A stretch of DNA of 55,680 bases from an uncultured Selenomonadales bacterium (GTDB taxonomy: Bacteria > Bacillota > Negativicutes > Selenomonadales > Selenomonadaceae). Below, piece by piece: positions 14,514 to 25,339 of this stretch (position 1 is the stretch's first letter; every line of letters begins with the position of its first letter). A model generated the notes under the pieces. The model was given only the letters and a program-made list of their open reading frames with translations, did no database searches and was not told the DNA's origin. The position numbers and the translations under genes are program-made. The stretch lies in contig CAMJRX010000013.1 in NCBI GenBank assembly GCA_946408355.1, positions 1 through 55,680 of the forward strand. Direction: 5' to 3'.

Positions 14514-15040
14514 TTAAAAAATTTTTCGGCGTAGTGATTTTGCTGATGATTGCTTTAACGCAAAATGCTTTCGCTGAACCGCGTATAAGTTATCAAGTAC
14601 ACGTTCAGGATTATGGTTGGATGCCGCCTGTTAGCGAGGGTCGAGTTGCTGGTACGACCGGTGAAGAAAAACGCATTGAGGCGATTATTATAAATTGCCC
14701 TGAAGGCATTGAATACAACGCGCACATTCAAGATTATGGCTGGGAAGGTTGGATGGATTCGGGCGTCGTGGCGGGCACGGTCGGCGAAGGTCGACGCCTT
14801 GAAGCTATCAGAATTCGTCTTACCGGCAGTATTGCAAACAGCTACGACGTTTATTATCGGGCGCACGTGGAGAATTTTGGTTGGCAAGATTGGGTAAGTA
14901 ACGGAAGGATTGCTGGCACCGAAGGTAGAGGCTTGCGCATGGAAGCTATACAGATAAGGCTCGTTAGAAAGGGCGACGGGCACAATAATTTCAGACACAG
15001 ACGCGGCAGATATGGACACAACTACGACGATTACAGTTGA
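14510..15040 (+). CDS. Exported protein with three ChW (clostridial hydrophobic W) repeats
   Basis: 176 residues: an N-terminal signal peptide ([20 protein letters not shown], cleavage probably after AFA) and three ~45-residue repeats. Each has the pattern Y-x-A/V-H-V/I-x-D-Y/F-G-W, a second Trp or its equivalent, G-x-V/I-AGT-x-G, R-x-EAI-x-I. These are ChW repeats, known from cell-surface proteins of Clostridium. The C-terminus is short, basic and His-rich ([14 protein letters not shown]). It is joined by a four-base overlap to smpB and followed closely by two glycosyltransferases, so it may be a cell-surface protein or glycosylation target; that link is inference. Confidence 0.82.
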
Positions 15041-15051
15041 GAAAATTTGAC

Positions 15052-16623
15052 ATGAACATTTTAAAAAAATATGAACAGGCACTAAAATTATACAGGGCAA
15101 AAAAATTTAATGCGGCGTTAAAGATTGTCAAGGAAGTGGAGAAAGCCGCACCGCATTGGAAGAAAAGTTTTTTATTGGAGATATTTATTCGCCGCGACCA
15201 ATGGGAACACATAAAAGAATTGGCTTTGCTGGAAAAATTTTTGCCGCGTCTTGATTGCAATTCGGCAGACGATAAATATTTGGCAGCGGACGCTTTTAAT
15301 TGTTTTGGTTCGCTTAACAGATCTTTAGGGCGCACGGCGGATTCAGTAAAAGCTTTTTGTTTATCGGCGAGTTTATCTGACGACAATAAAAAAGCTTGTG
15401 AGGAAATCAGCAATGCGCTTTTCGCGGCAAGTAGTGCGGAAAATTATTCTGCCGCTGACTTCCAAAAGCTTTACGACGAATACAAAAAATATTTATCGGA
15501 CATAAAGCCTTACCCGAAGGAATTTTACCGTCATGAAAAAATTCGGGTGGGCTTTTTGTCTAGCTGTTTTCAATGGCATGTGGTTATGTCATGGGGTTGG
15601 CACCTTGTGAGCGGTCTCGATAAAAATTTGTTCAAAGTTTATTGCTACTCTAACGTAAAAACTCCCGATAAAGTTACGAATTATTTTCGGGCAAGTGTCG
15701 ACGTTTGGCGCGATATTTACAGCTTGACGGACGCGGTAACGGCTGAATTGATTCGCGCTGATGAAATTGATATTTTATTTGAATTGGACGGGCACACGGT
15801 AGATAATCGGCTCCGAATTGCGGCATATCGACCTGCTAGCGTTCAAATTTCGGGAATCGGTTACATGAACAGCACGGGGCTTGACTGCTTCGATTATTTT
15901 TTGTCAGATATTTATTGTGCAGGTGACGAATCTTATTTTACCGAAAAACTTATTAAGTTACCGCACAGCCATTTTTGTTACGAGCCGCCAACGAAAATTG
16001 AGCCAGCCGCTTATCCGCCTTGTATAAAAAATAATTTTGTGACGTTCGGAAGTTTTAATCAGTTCGGCAAGATGACGGACTCGGTATTTATTACGTGGCA
16101 AAAAATTCTGGACGCCGTGCCCAATAGTTTATTAATTCTCAAGCATCAAATTTTTAGCAACGACGACGGAAGAAATTTTGTTAGGGAACGGCTGAAAAGT
16201 TTTGGCTTTGACATTAAGCGAGTAGAAATGCGCCCTTACACGGAAAATCACATTGTTGAATATAACGACGTGGACATTGCGCTTGACACGTTCCCTTATA
16301 CAGGCGGAGTAACGACTTGCGAGGCGTTGTATATGGGCGTTCCGGTTATCAGTCTTTACGGCAACAGACACGGGACGCGCTTTGGACTTAGTATTTTAAA
16401 AAATGTCGGACTTGATGAATTGGCGGTTGATTCTCCAGACGAGTATATTAATCGCGCCGTCGCGTTGGCTAGCGATTGGGAGTTGCTTACGATTCTAAGA
16501 AAAAATTTACGTACTATGATGAAAAAATCTTCTCTTATGGACGCTAAAAATTATGTTCGCGAGGTTGGAGAGGCTTTTGTTAAAATCCTAAGCGACGCAA
16601 GGAGGACGGGCAATGAACGTTGA
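15052..16623 (+). CDS. GT41-family O-GlcNAc transferase-like protein, copy 1
   Basis: 523 residues: a helical TPR-like N-terminal region (to ~140) and a two-part GT-B domain of the OGT/SPINDLY family. Recognisable OGT landmarks are IRVGFLSSCFQWH (catalytic-region His), LFELDGHTVDNRL, YRPASVQISGIGYMNS TG, FVTFGSFNQFGKM with the UDP-binding NQ, and DVDIALDTFPYTGGVTTCEA. It would transfer a sugar, probably GlcNAc, to Ser/Thr of proteins in the cytoplasm; flagellin is a plausible target given FliB nearby. ATG 15052 has only a poor ribosome site; TTG 15037 is an alternative. It overlaps copy 2 by 11 nt. Confidence 0.87.
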   Translation: MNILKKYEQALKLYRAKKFNAALKIVKEVEKAAPHWKKSFLLEIFIRRDQWEHIKELALLEKFLPRLDCNSADDKYLAADAFNCFGSLNRSLGRTADSVKAFCLSASLSDDNKKACEEISNALFAASSAENYSAADFQKLYDEYKKYLSDIKPYPKEFYRHEKIRVGFLSSCFQWHVVMSWGWHLVSGLDKNLFKVYCYSNVKTPDKVTNYFRASVDVWRDIYSLTDAVTAELIRADEIDILFELDGHTVDNRLRIAAYRPASVQISGIGYMNSTGLDCFDYFLSDIYCAGDESYFTEKLIKLPHSHFCYEPPTKIEPAAYPPCIKNNFVTFGSFNQFGKMTDSVFITWQKILDAVPNSLLILKHQIFSNDDGRNFVRERLKSFGFDIKRVEMRPYTENHIVEYNDVDIALDTFPYTGGVTTCEALYMGVPVISLYGNRHGTRFGLSILKNVGLDELAVDSPDEYINRAVALASDWELLTILRKNLRTMMKKSSLMDAKNYVREVGEAFVKILSDARRTGNER

Positions 16624-18169
16624 GAAACTTTATTCGCGAGCCGAAAAACAATATGAATACAAAAATTATGACGAAGCATTGAAACTTATAGATAAAATTA
16701 AACGTTACGAGCCGTCTTTCAGAAAGGCTTACTTTCTTGAAGGGGGCATTTGGCTAAAATTAAACAATCCTGTAAAAGAACGCGACGCATTAAAAGAAAC
16801 ACCGTCCATGTTTGATCTTAAAAATCCCAACGAATGGTCTTTAGCAACGACTATTCTATCGACTTTAGCCACTGCTACAGCTAATCTGGGGCTTAATGAG
16901 GAAGCTATGAAAATTTTTCGTATGGTAGCAGAATATTCTGTTAAAGAAAATATAAATTTAAATGCATTGGATTCTGCAATTTATATTGGCAGTTATACAG
17001 AAAATTGTTCAGCCACCGACTTAAAAGCTCTCTACGATAAATACAAAAAATATTTGGTAGATATTAAACCTTATCCGAAAAAATTTTACTCTCATGAAAA
17101 AATTCGCGTAGGGTTCATGTCCGCCGACTTTTACAGACATCCCGCATTGCATTGGTCTTGGGCTTTGTTCACTAATCTTGACAAAAATTCTTTTGAGAAA
17201 TGTTACTATTCCAATGTAGAGACGCCAGACGAGCTTACGGAGTATTTGCGTTCTAATGCCGACATTTGGCAAGACATTAAAGACTTAACAGACGAGGCGG
17301 CGGCAAAACTTATTCGAGACGACGAGATTGATATTCTGTTCGACTTATCAGGACACACGAAAGGCAATCGACTTCCGGTTGCGGCATATCGACCTGCCTC
17401 CGTTCAAATTTCTGGTATCGGCTACATAAACAGCACAGGACTTGATTGCTTCGATTATTTTTTGTCAGATATTTATTGCGCTGGTAACGAGGCGGCTATG
17501 AATGAATATTTCACGGAAAAAATTATTAAGCTTCCTCACAGTCATATTTGCTACGAACTTAGAGCAAACATTGAGCCTGCCGATTATCCGCCGTGTGTTA
17601 GAAATGGTTATGTGACGTTCGGGAGCTTCAATCAATTTAGAAAAATAACGGATTCGATTTTAAGCACGTGGAAGAAAATTTTGGACGCCGTGCCCGATAG
17701 CCGCTTAATTCTCAAGCATAAAATTTTTGATACAGAGGACGGAAAAAAATTTGTCATTGAGCGGCTAAAAAATTTTAACTTTGATTTGGCACGGGTGGAT
17801 ATGCGAGGATTTTCACCGAGCTGGCTTGTAGAATATGGCGACGTGGACATTGCGCTTGATACGTTCCCTTATACGGGCGGCGTCACCACTTGCGAGGCGT
17901 TATATATGGGCGTTCCGGTTATCAGTCTTTACGGCGACCGGCACGGAACGCGCTTTGGACTTAGCATTTTAAGTAACGTTGGACTGGCGGAGTTGGCAGT
18001 TGATTCTTATGACGAGTATATTAATCGAGCAGTCGCATTAGCTAGCGATTGGGAACTTTTAGCAATTTTGCGTAAAAATTTGCGCGGCATGATGGAGAAG
18101 TCGCCGCTAATGGATTCGGCAAATTATACCCGCGAAGTTCAAGACGCCTTTATAAAAATTCTGCGTTAA
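16613..18169 (+). CDS. GT41-family O-GlcNAc transferase-like protein, copy 2
   Basis: 518-residue paralogue of the preceding gene, with the same architecture: TPR-like start and GT41 domain. Motifs are IRVGFMSADFYRHPALH, LFDLSGHTKGNRL, YRPASVQISGIGYINS, VTFGSFNQFRKI and DVDIALDTFPYTGGVTTCEA. It keeps a His-Pro-x-x-His near the catalytic His (OGT: GNHPTSH), which copy 1 has lost. C-terminal halves are nearly identical between copies at DNA level while the N-terminal ~150 residues differ. AGGAGG lies 8 nt before the ATG, inside copy 1, so the genes are translationally coupled. Divergent TPR ends suggest different protein targets. Confidence 0.88.
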   Translation: MNVEKLYSRAEKQYEYKNYDEALKLIDKIKRYEPSFRKAYFLEGGIWLKLNNPVKERDALKETPSMFDLKNPNEWSLATTILSTLATATANLGLNEEAMKIFRMVAEYSVKENINLNALDSAIYIGSYTENCSATDLKALYDKYKKYLVDIKPYPKKFYSHEKIRVGFMSADFYRHPALHWSWALFTNLDKNSFEKCYYSNVETPDELTEYLRSNADIWQDIKDLTDEAAAKLIRDDEIDILFDLSGHTKGNRLPVAAYRPASVQISGIGYINSTGLDCFDYFLSDIYCAGNEAAMNEYFTEKIIKLPHSHICYELRANIEPADYPPCVRNGYVTFGSFNQFRKITDSILSTWKKILDAVPDSRLILKHKIFDTEDGKKFVIERLKNFNFDLARVDMRGFSPSWLVEYGDVDIALDTFPYTGGVTTCEALYMGVPVISLYGDRHGTRFGLSILSNVGLAELAVDSYDEYINRAVALASDWELLAILRKNLRGMMEKSPLMDSANYTREVQDAFIKILR

Positions 18170-20576: not shown

Positions 20577-21674
20577 TTACAACAAAAAATCCGTGAAGAC
20601 TTCATTGCCTAAACTCATTCCTCGCGCTGTCAAAAAAATTTTATCGCCGTCAACTTTAAGCAAGCCGCGCCGAATATTTTTATCAATAACCGCGCCGAAT
20701 ACGTCAAAGATACTTGCGCCGAATTTATATTTAAAAGTTTTTGCGGAAATGCCAGCCGTCATTCGCAAGCCGAGAAAACAAAATTCTTCCATTGCCGCTT
20801 GATTTGTGACGACCTCCTCAACTATTGGAACGTTATTTTTTATGTAAGTCGCCACGTCGCGAACGTTTGAAGTTCTTAACTTGCCGTCGAAACTGTGCGC
20901 CCCCGCTCCAAAGCCGAAATATTTTTTACCCGTCCAATAGCCGCAATTATGACGGCTCTCGAAATTTTTCTTAGCAAAGTTGCTGATTTCGTAGCGATTA
21001 TATCCGAGCGTCGGCAAAGTTTCCGTTATAAAATCGTACATATCGGCGCAAATATTTTCATCGGGCAAGTTAAGATTATCTGCGCGGGCAAGCTCAAAAA
21101 ATTTCGTGCCCTCTTCGACTTCCAAGCCGTAAATCGACACGTGTTGAATGTCAAGATTTTTAATGTGGTTAACTTCGTGGCGAAGGCTTTGCAAAGTTTG
21201 ATTGGGCAAGCCGTACATTAAATCAACGCTGACATTTGCAAAAAAATTTTTCGCAAGCGTAATCGTTTCAATCGCCGCCCGCGAAGTGTGTATTCTGCCC
21301 AAAATTTTTAAAAGTTCGTCATCAAAACTTTGTACGCCCAAGCTTAATCGATTAAAGCCCAAAACTTTTAAGCCGCGCAGATAATTTTCGTTGACGGTGC
21401 CGGGATTCGCCTCGATTGTAATTTCTGCCTGCTTATCAACGCGAAAATTTTTATTTAAGGCGCAGATAATCTTTTCAAGCTGATTAAGCGTTAAAGTCGT
21501 GGGCGTCCCTCCACCAAAATAAATCGTCTCAACTGTGGATTCGTCGCCGCGCAGATTAATTTCTTTAATCAAAGCGTCAATATAAGAATTTTTTTCCGTC
21601 GCGTCGCTAACTTTGGAATTGAACGCGCAGTAGTTGCATTTACGCTGGCAAAACGGAATGTGTATGTAAATCAT
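20577..21674 (-). CDS. hemW: Radical SAM heme chaperone HemW
   Basis: 365 residues; radical SAM Cys motif CQRKCNYC directly after MIYIHIPF, then [27 protein letters not shown] and the C-terminal HemN-like region. HemW proteins bind heme and insert it into respiratory enzymes; they lack the coproporphyrinogen oxidase signature despite the old name. The start overlaps the prfA stop by four bases (ATGA). Heme handling fits with ccmAB elsewhere in the window. Confidence 0.9.
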
Positions 21675-22738
21675 TTTGTAGCAGATAATTTTTTTGCGCG
21701 GTCGGCGGTTATCAGCGCGGCAATAATTTCGTCGAGGTCGCCGTTCAAAATTTCTTCTAATTTGTAAAGCGTCAATTTAATTCTGTGGTCAGTCACGCGC
21801 CCTTGAGGGAAATTGTACGTGCGAATTTTCTCGCTCCTGTCGCCAGAGCCAACTTGACTTTTTCTATCTGCGGCAATGTTCGCTGTCTGTTCGCGAACGG
21901 CTAAATCTTTGACGCGGGCACGCAAAACGCGCATAGCTTTTTCTTTATTTTTGAGTTGCGATTTTTCGTCTTGGCATTGAACAACAATTCCCGTCGGCAA
22001 ATGCGTAATTCGGATTGCGGTTTCAGTGCGGTTGACGTATTGCCCGCCCGCGCCGCTCGCGCAATAAGTATCAATTCGCAAATCGGCGGGATTAATCACA
22101 ACGTCGACTTCCTCAGCTTCGGGCATAACGGCAACAGTTGCCGCGCTCGTGTGAATTCTGCCGCCGCTCTCCGTGGCGGGAACTCTTTGCACTCTATGCG
22201 CTCCGCTCTCGTATTTGAGCTTGCTGAACGCGCCCGTGCCCTCGACCGTGAAAATAATTTCCTTAAAGCCGCCAATCGTCGTAGCGTTCGCGTAGACAAT
22301 ATCGACGTGCCAACCTTGCCGCTCAGCGTAGCGCGTGTACATTCTAAAAAGTTCGCCTGCAAAAAGAGCCGCCTCTTCGCCGCCGACGCCCCCGCGAATT
22401 TCCATGATTACATTTTTATCGTCGTTGGGGTCTTTAGGCAAAAGCAAAATCGGCAATTCAACTTCAAGCGCGTCTTTGGATTTTTTAAGTTCAGCAAGCT
22501 CCTCTGCCGCCAAAATTTTTAAATCCTCGTCCATCGACGTTTCCAATAAATTTTTATCTTCGTCAATCTGCGCGGCGATTCTTTTATACTCAAGAAATTT
22601 TTTTACAATCGGCTCAAGGTTAGCGTGTTCGCGAGTTAAAGCGGTAAATTTTTCCACGTCTGCGACAACCGACGGGTCACTTAATCGCGCTTCGACTTCC
22701 GCGAAATGTTCCTCGACCTGTTGAAGTTTATCAAGCAT
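21671..22738 (-). CDS. prfA: Peptide chain release factor 1
   Basis: Class I release factor of 355 residues reading UAA/UAG. The PAT anticodon-like tripeptide is in [10 protein letters not shown] and the catalytic GGQ in [17 protein letters not shown] 22738 gives the usual [12 protein letters not shown]; a GTG three codons upstream is also possible. Its start lies 8 nt inside sufU, so translation is coupled. The methyltransferase prmC, often next to prfA, is absent. Confidence 0.96.
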
Positions 22739-23174
22739 TGGCGGCACCGTCCGAATTTTTTAGCGCAGTATCAAGCGTATGCCAAGCAAGAGTAGCACAT
22801 TTGACGCGGGCAGGCATTATTGAAATATTTTTCAAAGCCGCCGCCTCGTCAAGTTTCTCAAGTTCGGCGTCGTCAGTAACTTCTCCCTGAATCATTTTTA
22901 TAAAAAGTTCGGCGAGACGTTGAGCCTCGTCAACATTTTTTCCGCGCATAAGTTCAATCATCATATCAGTTGAGGCTTGTGAAATGGCGCAACCTGCCCC
23001 GCTAAACGCCGCGTCAATAATTTTGTCGTCTGCAACTTCCAACTCCAAAGTTATCTCGTCGCCGCAACTGGGATTATGTCCGCGTTCTTTAATCGTGGCG
23101 TGTTCAAGTTGACGCCGATTTTCAAGCGATTGGCTATGTTCGGCAATTAGTTCCGTGTAAATATTCTCTAGCAA
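22731..23174 (-). CDS. sufU: Iron-sulfur cluster scaffold/sulfur-transfer protein SufU
   Basis: 147 residues of the IscU/SufU family, with the three conserved Cys in [18 protein letters not shown] and [12 protein letters not shown]. The longer middle segment (residues ~75-100, EGEVT-type region) separates SufU from IscU. SufU is the zinc-dependent sulfur acceptor of SufS in Firmicutes; sufCDSB are not here. TTG 23174 is the start, 9 nt behind AGGAGAG. Confidence 0.9.
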
Positions 23175-23192: not shown

Positions 23193-24377
23193 TTAGCTTG
23201 CGCGAAATGAGTTCACTAAAATTATTATGCTGAAAATTATCACGCCGGCCAAAGCTATCAGCGGGTGATAAGGTATCGGCGAATTTTCCAGCGCGGACAT
23301 AATCGCCGGCGGCACTAACACTATCCACGACAACAGCGCGATTATCCGATTGGTTTTTAGAACTTTTAAGACTTTTAACGCGGTCTCTCTGATTAATAAA
23401 AATTTTTCAAGCGTCGGAATTTCAAAGTCCGTTTTATTTTCGTTCGACGAATTAAGCGAACCACCCGCCAATAAAAATGATACGTCGGCAATTTTCAGCG
23501 CGGGCAAGTCGTGTTCGTCGTTGCCGATAACCGCTACGATTTTTCCTTTGGCGCGGAAGATTTGCACTTCGCGAGCTTTGCCCTCCGGTGAAAGATTTGT
23601 TCGTATGTGGTCGAGTGCAAAATTTTTCGTAAACCAACTTGCCATCTTTTTAGGTTGAGATGTCAACAAAAGCGTTTCAATTCCGTTGCGCTTTAAGTCG
23701 CCCAAAAATTTTATAGCGGCGTCGTTTATGTCGTCTTTTAGTGCGATAACGCCGCGAGCCGCCCGACCCGTTGCGACAATCAAAACAGATTTACCCTTGA
23801 CGAGCAGTTGGTCAATCTTCGTGAGCAATTTCGCGCTAACCGATACGCCAAAACCTTCAAGCCACGCCAAATTTCCTACGCGAATTGTTGTACCGCTGAC
23901 AGTCGCCTCAACGCCGCGCCCAGGTAATTCTCTAAAATTCGTCGACGGTTGCAATCTTAAAGATCTATGCGTCGCCGTGTCGTAAATCACGCGCCCCAAA
24001 ACATTTTCCGCGTCGGTCTCTGCTCCTGCCGCCATTGCCAATAGTGTTGGTTGATTCAAGCCCTCCGGCACTAAATCTGTTATGTAAAATTCGCCGCCCG
24101 TCAACACCCGATTATACGGCAACGCGACAATGTTCACGTCCTTTAAAAGTTTCAGCGCATCGGGATTGTTTAACTTTATGCCATGCTTAGCGATTTTCCT
24201 TCGTGCTAAAAACAACGTAAACGGCGACGCAAAAATTAAACAGATTGGCGAAAGCGCAACGAAAATTGACAGCCCCGTCATTAATGCCGCGTCGACGCTC
24301 CGCGTAAAATATAGCCACGCCGCCACCGCTCCACTTATCAGCGCGTCGAGTATGAATAAAGAAATTATATGTTTCAT
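23193..24377 (-). CDS. Degenerate P-type (P1B-like) ATPase lacking the catalytic Asp
   Basis: 394 residues that align with the second half of a heavy-metal P1B ATPase: two N-terminal membrane helices, P and N domains, and two C-terminal helices. The alignment is clear around residue 81-95, VNIVALPYNRVLTGG, against the family's V-D-T-V-V-F-DKTGTLT-x-G. The phosphorylated Asp is Pro87 and Lys is Tyr88. The transmembrane CPC site is SPI (43-45), TGD is TSQ (239-241), and GDGxND is GNDEHD (285-290). The actuator domain, TGE loop and metal-binding domains are absent. The frame is intact and has ordinary codon use, so it is a maintained pseudoenzyme rather than a pseudogene. It overlaps the hydroxyacid dehydrogenase stop by four bases and precedes sufU. 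Confidence 0.85.
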   Translation of the reverse strand: MKHIISLFILDALISGAVAAWLYFTRSVDAALMTGLSIFVALSPICLIFASPFTLFLARRKIAKHGIKLNNPDALKLLKDVNIVALPYNRVLTGGEFYITDLVPEGLNQPTLLAMAAGAETDAENVLGRVIYDTATHRSLRLQPSTNFRELPGRGVEATVSGTTIRVGNLAWLEGFGVSVSAKLLTKIDQLLVKGKSVLIVATGRAARGVIALKDDINDAAIKFLGDLKRNGIETLLLTSQPKKMASWFTKNFALDHIRTNLSPEGKAREVQIFRAKGKIVAVIGNDEHDLPALKIADVSFLLAGGSLNSSNENKTDFEIPTLEKFLLIRETALKVLKVLKTNRIIALLSWIVLVPPAIMSALENSPIPYHPLIALAGVIIFSIIILVNSFRAS

Positions 24378-25339
24378 TTGTTGACGACGTTGACGGGCTT
24401 ACCCGCAAGCCACGCTTTAAGATTTTCTGCGGCAATATTCATAAGACGTTCGCGCGATTCTTTTGGTGCCCAGCTGATATGCGGCGTTATAAAACAATTT
24501 TTCGCGCCGAGCAGAGGATTATCGCCCTTAATCGGTTCGGTAGATACAACGTCAAGCCCCGCCGCAAAAACTTTTCCGCTGTCGAGAGCGTCGCGCAAAT
24601 CCTGGTCGACAACTAAACCGCCGCGACTGTTGTTTAGGATTATAACGCCATCTTTCATCTTAGCGATATTTTCTTTGCAAATAATTCCCTGCGTGGACGG
24701 GAACAACGGACAATGCAAAGCGATAACGTCAGAAGTTGCAAATAGTTCGTCGAGTTCGACAAAAGAGCAATCGCCGAGCTTTGTACCGACTTCGCGCATT
24801 GAGTCGAACGCAATAACTTTCATTCCGAACGCCTGCGCCAATTTGCCCGTTGTCTGACCAATTCTTCCGTAGCCGATAATGCCCATAGTTTTTCCTGCCA
24901 ATTCAATCAACGGATAATCCCAAAAACAAAAGTCCTCGCAATTTTCCCAACGTCCCTCGTGAACGGCTTGGCTGTGGTGCGCCACGTGGTGACAAATTTC
25001 TAACAGCAGAGCAAAGGCGAATTGTGCAACTGATTGCGTGCCATAAGTCGGAATGTTTGTGACGGGAATATTTTTTTCCTTAGCCGCCGCAATGTCGACA
25101 ACATCATAACCCGTCGCCAAAACACCGATATATTTTATGTTGCAAACATCGAGAATTTTTTTAGTGAGCGGCGTTTTATTCGTGATAACAATTTCCGCGT
25201 CGCCGATTCGAGAAATAATTTCGGCGTCGTCAGTCAAGCTTGTGCGGTCGTAAATTTTGCACTCGCCCAAAGTTTTAAGCGCGTCCCAACTCAAATCGCC
25301 GGGGTTTAGCGTGTAGCCGTCAAGCACAACAATTTTCAT
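24374..25339 (-). CDS. D-2-hydroxyacid dehydrogenase (glycerate dehydrogenase/hydroxypyruvate reductase-like)
   Basis: 321-residue NAD(H)-dependent enzyme. Rossmann motif MGIIGYGRIGQTTGKLA, catalytic Arg in NNSRGGLVVD, Glu near residue 260, and His in FITPHISWAPKES. The family interconverts 2-hydroxy and 2-oxo acids; sequence is closest in feel to HprA. ATG 25339 lies behind AGGAG; the long upstream frame extension is intergenic sequence. First gene of the minus operon that runs to 19142. Confidence 0.87.
   Translation of the reverse strand: MKIVVLDGYTLNPGDLSWDALKTLGECKIYDRTSLTDDAEIISRIGDAEIVITNKTPLTKKILDVCNIKYIGVLATGYDVVDIAAAKEKNIPVTNIPTYGTQSVAQFAFALLLEICHHVAHHSQAVHEGRWENCEDFCFWDYPLIELAGKTMGIIGYGRIGQTTGKLAQAFGMKVIAFDSMREVGTKLGDCSFVELDELFATSDVIALHCPLFPSTQGIICKENIAKMKDGVIILNNSRGGLVVDQDLRDALDSGKVFAAGLDVVSTEPIKGDNPLLGAKNCFITPHISWAPKESRERLMNIAAENLKAWLAGKPVNVVNK

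Follow-up and report, generated by a model that had tools for sequence, protein, structure and literature searches.

A copper-type P1B ATPase stripped of its catalytic motifs and possibly reused as a non-catalytic membrane protein in Selenomonadaceae

A 394-residue protein encoded on the window, the 55,680-nucleotide stretch of DNA from an uncultured Selenomonadales bacterium analysed here, is shown by its sequence to descend from a copper-type P1B ATPase and to be unable to run the known pump cycle. We regard it as almost certainly an inactive pump, and its gene as very probably functional and under selection. The best explanation, which falls just short of probable, is that an inactivated CopA was retained as a non-catalytic membrane protein that would most likely act as a nucleotide-responsive regulatory or scaffold subunit. 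The wider reading is more tentative: the family as a whole may represent a P-type pseudo-ATPase, a copper pump that was switched off, dismantled stepwise and reused in a membrane complex as a regulatory subunit that senses nucleotide, with long and short dead forms (one of them with the Asp) and active sister pumps preserving the steps of dismantling. The data suggest a dead pump given a new job, and matches to heavy-metal ATPase profiles can be proteins unable to pump by the known cycle.

Fold and motifs of the window protein

The reading frame begins with ATG and contains no internal stop. HMMER aligns the protein to positions 184-559 of TIGR01525 (E 2e-44) with a score of 152 bits, below the NCBIfam cut-off of 346 bits, and its score for the HAD-like hydrolase model PF00702 (51.8 bits) passes the gathering cut-off of 26.4 bits. 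Residues 347-730 of the copper ATPase 3rfu, presumably the Legionella enzyme, align to it with E 6e-32. The AlphaFold2 model (pLDDT 86.4, pTM 0.74) has four membrane helices. Foldseek on this model finds the P-N domain and the M3-M6 fold of P1B ATPases, with a TMq of 0.79 to CopA (7r0g) and a TMt of 0.89-0.91 to the CopA P-N domains 3a1c and 3a1d (0.90 for 3a1d) at an rmsd of 2.2-2.4. The protein is thus homologous to CopA-type P1B ATPases (TIGR01525/TIGR01511; 3rfu, 3a1c, 7r0g) over its whole length, from M3 to M6, and shares their P-N fold. In contrast to these pumps, it has no HMA domain, no M1-M2, no actuator domain and none of the motifs DKTGT, CPC, TGD and GDGxND.

A sequence-only reading of the window had described a maintained P-type ATPase pseudoenzyme in which every catalytic site is replaced. 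Alignment confirms each replacement that it listed: the phosphorylated Asp, which is the HAD motif I nucleophile, is Pro87 and the motif Lys is Tyr88, CPC has become SPI, TGD has become TSQ, and GDGxND has become GNDEHD. Some core residues are retained in the P domain, namely K267 and D290, the last Asp of GDGxND; each of these, like D298, is invariant in 34/34 same-genus sequences.

The actuator domain was correctly read as missing, PF00122 not being reported for the frame. In the 11 genomes scanned for an orphan N-terminal half none was found; PF00122 scored above its cut-off exclusively in frames of 621-925 aa, and for these genomes a split pump with its N-terminal half encoded elsewhere was rejected on this ground.

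The sole Cys of the window protein is residue 46 (24240-24242), directly after SPI. Most sequences of the window's genus have SPxC in M4, and 30 of 35 have its Cys.

Table 1. Location of the pseudo-ATPase gene, its motifs and its neighbours in the window. "Dead" sequences are profile-match relatives without the exact string DKTGT.
Feature	Position	Strand	Remarks
Pseudo-P1B-ATPase half-protein (M3-M4, P/N domains, M5-M6)	23193..24377	-	394 aa; profile matches, AlphaFold2, Foldseek
SPI (residues 43-45), at the site of the CPC metal motif in M4	24243..24251	-	CPC in 0/87 dead sequences
PYNRV (residues 87-91), replacing the phosphorylation motif DKTGT	24105..24119	-	Asp here in 1/87 dead sequences (L187, DRSGT)
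ETDAENV (residues 120-126), N domain; E retained, HP replaced by N125-V126	24000..24020	-	HP in 40/48 dead sequences outside the genus
GRG (residues 153-155), GxG nucleotide-site motif, retained	23913..23921	-	G155 in 87/87 dead sequences
TSQ (residues 239-241), in place of TGD	23655..23663	-	Alignment
K267, HAD motif III lysine, retained	23577..23579	-	In 78/87 dead sequences
GNDEHD (residues 285-290), in place of GDGxND; last Asp retained	23508..23525	-	Last Asp in 70/87 dead sequences
D-2-hydroxyacid dehydrogenase	24374..25339	-	321 aa from ATG at 25339; stop overlaps pseudo-ATPase start
sufU	22731..23174	-	18 bases downstream of pseudo-ATPase stop
prfA, after sufU	21671..22747	-	This arrangement in the window and L031 alone of 35 loci

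Distribution and descent of the dead genes

A relative is present in 34 of 36 same-genus genomes, at 38 to 95% identity and in frames without stops; the one in G014 comprises the first 114 residues only and lies at a contig end. No relative was found in G003 and G006, and as these genomes are 99-100% complete, the gene is dispensable. With the family profile, 62 of 66 same-genus genomes (the window's own included) are listed at E<=9e-137; the match of G003 is far weaker (7e-56), and G006, G341 and G014 have none at 1e-55. The matching contigs of the genus are from Quinella sp. and uncultured Selenomonadaceae, many of them from ruminants. Across the family, 158 of 189 genomes match at E<=1e-55, active ATPases among them. 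At E<=1e-70, 65 of 300 class genomes match, all in the window's family (f1), and a few of these matches are active ATPases.

The relatives we aligned as dead are 87 distinct open frames that lack DKTGT. They come from 21 genera, all in this one family, with Quinella, Selenomonas and Mitsuokella among them; 39 are from the window's genus (two of them, L113 and L114, assigned by similarity) and 48 from 20 other genera. The absence of DKTGT from this dead set is therefore definitional, but the results for CPC, for GDGxxD and for the Asp column, as well as the clade, do not depend on how the set was chosen. Left out were a partial repeat (L010b), a cut copy (L063), a truncated one (L126, which shares its contig with the broken copy L208), duplicates (L121, L128, L130, L131, L132, L133 and L188) and one sequence with an aberrant C terminus (L202); L156 was retained though short at its C terminus. 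Neither CPC nor GDGxxD occurs in any of the 87, the first Cys of CPC is present in ten, and the phosphorylation Asp is absent from 86, so the replaced motifs are common to the relatives, as the sequence-only reading had proposed to check. At the Asp site, the same-genus alignment has Pro in 28 and Ser in 11 of 39 rows (Pro 28 and Ser 7 in an earlier alignment of 35 rows). TGD persists in 11/48 dead sequences outside the genus and in 0/39 inside, and a length of 490 aa or less is found in 39/39 inside and 39/48 outside.

Two dead-gene copies, L208 (G368) and L206 (G351), have an internal stop, and some lineages may be losing the gene; an internal stop suggested for G364 by the profile search was absent in the later alignment. 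L167 (G058), from another family, was considered as a half-length catalytic relative with DKTGT and rejected, being a full-length P1B ATPase interrupted by a same-frame stop.

An IQ-TREE phylogeny was built from 82 of 111 rows, the 29 omitted being mostly near-copies. All 60 of its rows that lack DKTGT group in a single clade (100/99) inside the active type-1 CopAs. The ~860-aa CopA of the same genomes forms a separate clade, and forcing the dead group together with it was rejected (p-AU 0.0016). Long branches mark the deep part of the dead clade, where the branching order is resolved in part. The closest active relatives (L129, L150, L151, L152 and L169, of 632-762 aa, L152 being cut by a contig end) carry both DKTGT and CPC. 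That the dead sequences are one clade derived from CopA is, in our judgement, highly likely.

Gene order agrees with this descent, since dead loci outside the genus and active copA loci of related genera have flanks in common. At the active locus L169, csoR-copA-copZ-cydA runs divergently from ispE, and L188 has csoR-copA divergent from ispE. Outside the genus, 47 dead loci were compared: 21 have cydA directly 3' on the same strand and 19 have an ispE-cluster gene at most four genes upstream. Gene names at L136 and L169 come from profile matches and those at other loci from clustering; the csoR-like, copZ-like and cydA matches at L136 and L169 lie below NCBIfam cut-offs, and cydA in both genomes is over the PF01654 cut-off. 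Neither the csoR nor the copZ cluster was seen up to four genes away from a dead gene outside the genus. A crude search for copper operators upstream found C-run/G-run palindromes at the active L169 and L188, at the ~860-aa CopA L173 and at 3/47 dead loci (L134, L136 and L160), and a single CopY-like box, at L149.

Nine dead sequences are longer than 490 aa, all from outside the genus. One of them, L159, has no start upstream of the usual one; the other eight are N-terminally extended forms of 532-730 aa. A full A-domain match (116 bits) is confined to L183 (g25). Among the remaining seven, L182, L185, L186 and L187 match only the M3-M4 end of the A-domain model, below its cut-off, and three do not match it. 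L187 (G183, g35; 647 aa) retains the Asp, as DRSGT, together with TGD, and lacks CPC and the A domain. These long dead forms suggest a stepwise dismantling of the pump. As L187 adjoins the Asp-less L182 in the tree, the Asp was possibly lost more than once, and several losses rather than a single event may have occurred. As a single family contains active sister pumps along with dead forms of both long and half length, the order of loss is open to study. In L182, a charged stretch of about 90 residues stands between M2 and M3 instead of the actuator domain.

Selection and possible function

Between the window gene and its same-genus relative L031, dN/dS is 0.083 (dN 0.030, dS 0.358; Nei-Gojobori), well within the range of five nearby genes compared for the same pair (0.077, 0.078, 0.055, 0.123 and 0.164). 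Two other close pairs give 0.074 (L059/L061) and 0.086 (L035/L036); the 40 closest pairs listed span 0.074-0.637, and distant pairs are near saturation. For the window/L031 pair the cytoplasmic part has a dN/dS of 0.04 and the membrane part 0.17, a difference that is small in several other pairs. The purifying selection expected by the sequence-only reading is borne out, and its description of a maintained pseudoenzyme stands, with the Asp replaced in 39/39 same-genus sequences and a single dead clade. It had also named what would speak against it, a full-length ATPase with DKTGT at this locus in related genomes and neutral evolution of the window's copy: full-length active relatives do occur at the corresponding locus in other genera, but evolution of the copy is not neutral.

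E157, G209 and D298 are, like G155, present in all 87 dead sequences, W172 in 85, R166 in 83 and the M4 Pro in 86. At position 150, 82/87 have Glu, and the 17 active CopAs used for comparison have Ala or Thr. The M5 Tyr-Asn and M6 Met/Ser positions of active relatives are replaced in most dead sequences. The combination of E120, HP and G155 is kept by 40/48 dead sequences outside the genus and by 3/39 inside. By these counts the metal site has been lost everywhere and the Asp nearly everywhere, and the ATP pocket has changed mainly in the window's genus.

On the explanation we favour, a CopA in an ancestor within Selenomonadaceae lost its metal site (CPC) and the GDGxND hinge; the Asp has disappeared from all but one of the aligned descendants, and the actuator domain and N-terminal half from most. 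Most of the genomes with such descendants encode a separate, ordinary CopA of ~860 aa as well. The leftover M3-M4/P-N/M5-M6 unit, under purifying selection, may serve as a non-catalytic membrane subunit whose cytoplasmic P-N head would be the main selected part, nucleotide-responsive in most lineages. This head may bind nucleotide, or may formerly have done so, and could offer a regulatory or scaffold surface to another membrane protein. A nucleotide-responsive regulator or scaffold, the more specific form of this proposal, is a reasonable possibility that we put forward with caution. A P1B pump is one candidate partner of the P-N head, although an unlikely one. In the window's genus, where most sequences no longer have HP in the pocket, a scaffold role would dominate. 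The metal-binding subunit suggested by the sequence-only reading is disfavoured, because the transmembrane CPC is gone from 87/87.

Several observations count against the favoured explanation. No conserved neighbour points to a partner, HP is present in only 3/39 sequences of the window's genus, L187 still has the Asp, and the gene is dispensable, as its absence from G003 and G006 indicates. We take His462 of the structure 3a1e to be the His of HP. According to its title, 3a1e contains the CopA P-N domains with His462 changed to Gln and with nucleotide bound, so that loss of the His need not abolish nucleotide binding.

Somewhat unlikely, in our view, is a purely structural membrane scaffold, in which the P-N head would be a nucleotide-independent docking surface for other proteins and HP elsewhere a slowly decaying relic. 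The loss of HP in 36/39 sequences of the window's genus favours such a scaffold, as do the fixed E157, G209 and D298 and also E150, a residue of the dead proteins and not of the active CopAs. Unconstrained relics would nevertheless be expected to erode alike, yet HP stays, with E and G155, in 40/48 sequences from 20 other genera, all of which are without CPC and DKTGT.

More doubtful still is a partner dedicated to the resident ~860-aa CopA, acting on it in a dominant-negative or regulatory way. That CopA carries DKTGT and CPC in ten dead-gene genomes, which were chosen for having it, and four genomes with an active type-1 CopA (G234, G321, G374 and G332) are without an ~860-aa frame among their P1B matches. 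Replacement of one pump by another accounts for this pattern without any interaction, however, and the two proteins occur apart among the matches listed: the g45 genomes G315, G353 and G354 match the dead profile and have no CopA at 1e-200, whereas other genera (g27, two of the g24 genomes and 13 g29 genomes) show the reverse, a CopA but no family match at 1e-55. Nor is the pairing strict across the family: 18 genomes, several of them incomplete, lack a CopA match at E<=1e-200, and at least 14 of these match the dead-family profile.

The frequency of cydA as the next gene on the same strand, in 21/47 loci outside the genus, could point to an accessory of the cytochrome bd oxidase operon that helps CydAB or CydCD, as could the cydA-, cydB- and cydD-like genes at L136, in whose genome (G267) PF01654 is over its cut-off. 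We consider this very unlikely. The adjacency may be inherited, as the active copA operon at L169 also adjoins cydA; the window genome has its cydA on another contig (C9); and the genomes G319, G228, G294 and G331 have a dead gene but no CydA match, for which reason a bd association was rejected as a general feature.

PINA, an N-terminally truncated form of human ATP7B, retains DKTGT and CPC. It is described (PMC3750203) as a P1B ATPase without the metal-binding domains and the first four helices that transports copper weakly in yeast. This precedent, the four modelled membrane helices and the M4 Pro in 86/87 could be taken to favour a protein that still transports by another mechanism, as a half-pump dimer. 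Such a transporter is highly improbable given the loss of CPC from 87/87 and of the M5 YN and M6 M/S positions from most dead sequences; PINA, moreover, is a splice form of a working pump and not a separate gene (PMC3750203). A pseudogene on its way out, open by chance, as the stops in L208 and L206 and the missing relatives in G003 and G006 might suggest, is hardly tenable against a dN/dS like that of nearby genes, open frames in 21 genera and E150 fixed in 82/87.

Pseudoenzymes are well known among kinases and phosphatases, and the bacterial protein PcrP has a HAD fold and is not a P-type ATPase. PcrP resembles the role proposed here in that a non-catalytic function has been reported for it (PMC12632274). 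Human TMEM94 is a P-type-ATPase-like protein with no detected ATPase activity in vitro and a micromolar affinity for AMPPCP, and its status as a Mg2+ ATPase is disputed (PMC12134183). It provides a precedent, by its behaviour, for a P-type-like protein that binds nucleotide without measurable pumping (PMC12134183). Unlike the pseudo-ATPase, TMEM94 is a full-length human protein with ten helices, an A-like domain and an Asp (D417) at the proposed phosphorylation site (PMC12134183); TMEM94-like nucleotide binding by the pseudo-ATPase would follow from motif retention only. Searches of the open-licence PMC literature that paired P-type ATPase with pseudoenzyme, or P-type with pseudo-ATPase, gave no paper. 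Within the literature so covered, a pseudoenzyme is new for bacterial P-type ATPases.

Genomic neighbourhood

In the window, the start codon of the pseudo-ATPase and the stop codon of the dehydrogenase gene upstream overlap in the bases ATGA (24374-24377), in agreement with the intact frame, the translational coupling and the sufU gene that follows noted in the sequence-only reading. Its Fe-S/translation operon is true of the window and is not meaningful generally: sufU lies 3' of the pseudo-ATPase in 2/35 same-genus loci, those of the window and L031, which are also the only two where the gene travels with sufU and prfA, and an Fe-S/translation association was rejected as a general feature. 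Among the 35 loci counted, L063 breaks off within the gene itself, and some others reach their contig end a short way beyond it. The commonest neighbour in the genus is a 2-hydroxyacid dehydrogenase, at 15/35 loci by ORF call and at 17/35 when two loci with antisense ORFs called over the dehydrogenase are included. Neighbours differ among subgroups of the genus; those in the window's subgroup (CobT-like, DUF2142, threonine synthase and AdoMet decarboxylase) give no functional clue.

Elsewhere in the window, two adjacent, slightly overlapping plus-strand genes (15037-16623 and 16613-18169) encode proteins of glycosyltransferase family 41, which we take to be O-GlcNAc-transferase-like. Just 3' of the pseudo-ATPase gene at L010 (positions 195-491; G020, contig C271) lies a second copy of its last ~100 residues, 49% identical to those of the window protein, which is a partial duplication or an assembly artefact. 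In one same-genus subgroup (L056, L058, L059 and L061), an insert of ~50 residues rich in Asp, Glu and Lys is found between the P domain and M5.
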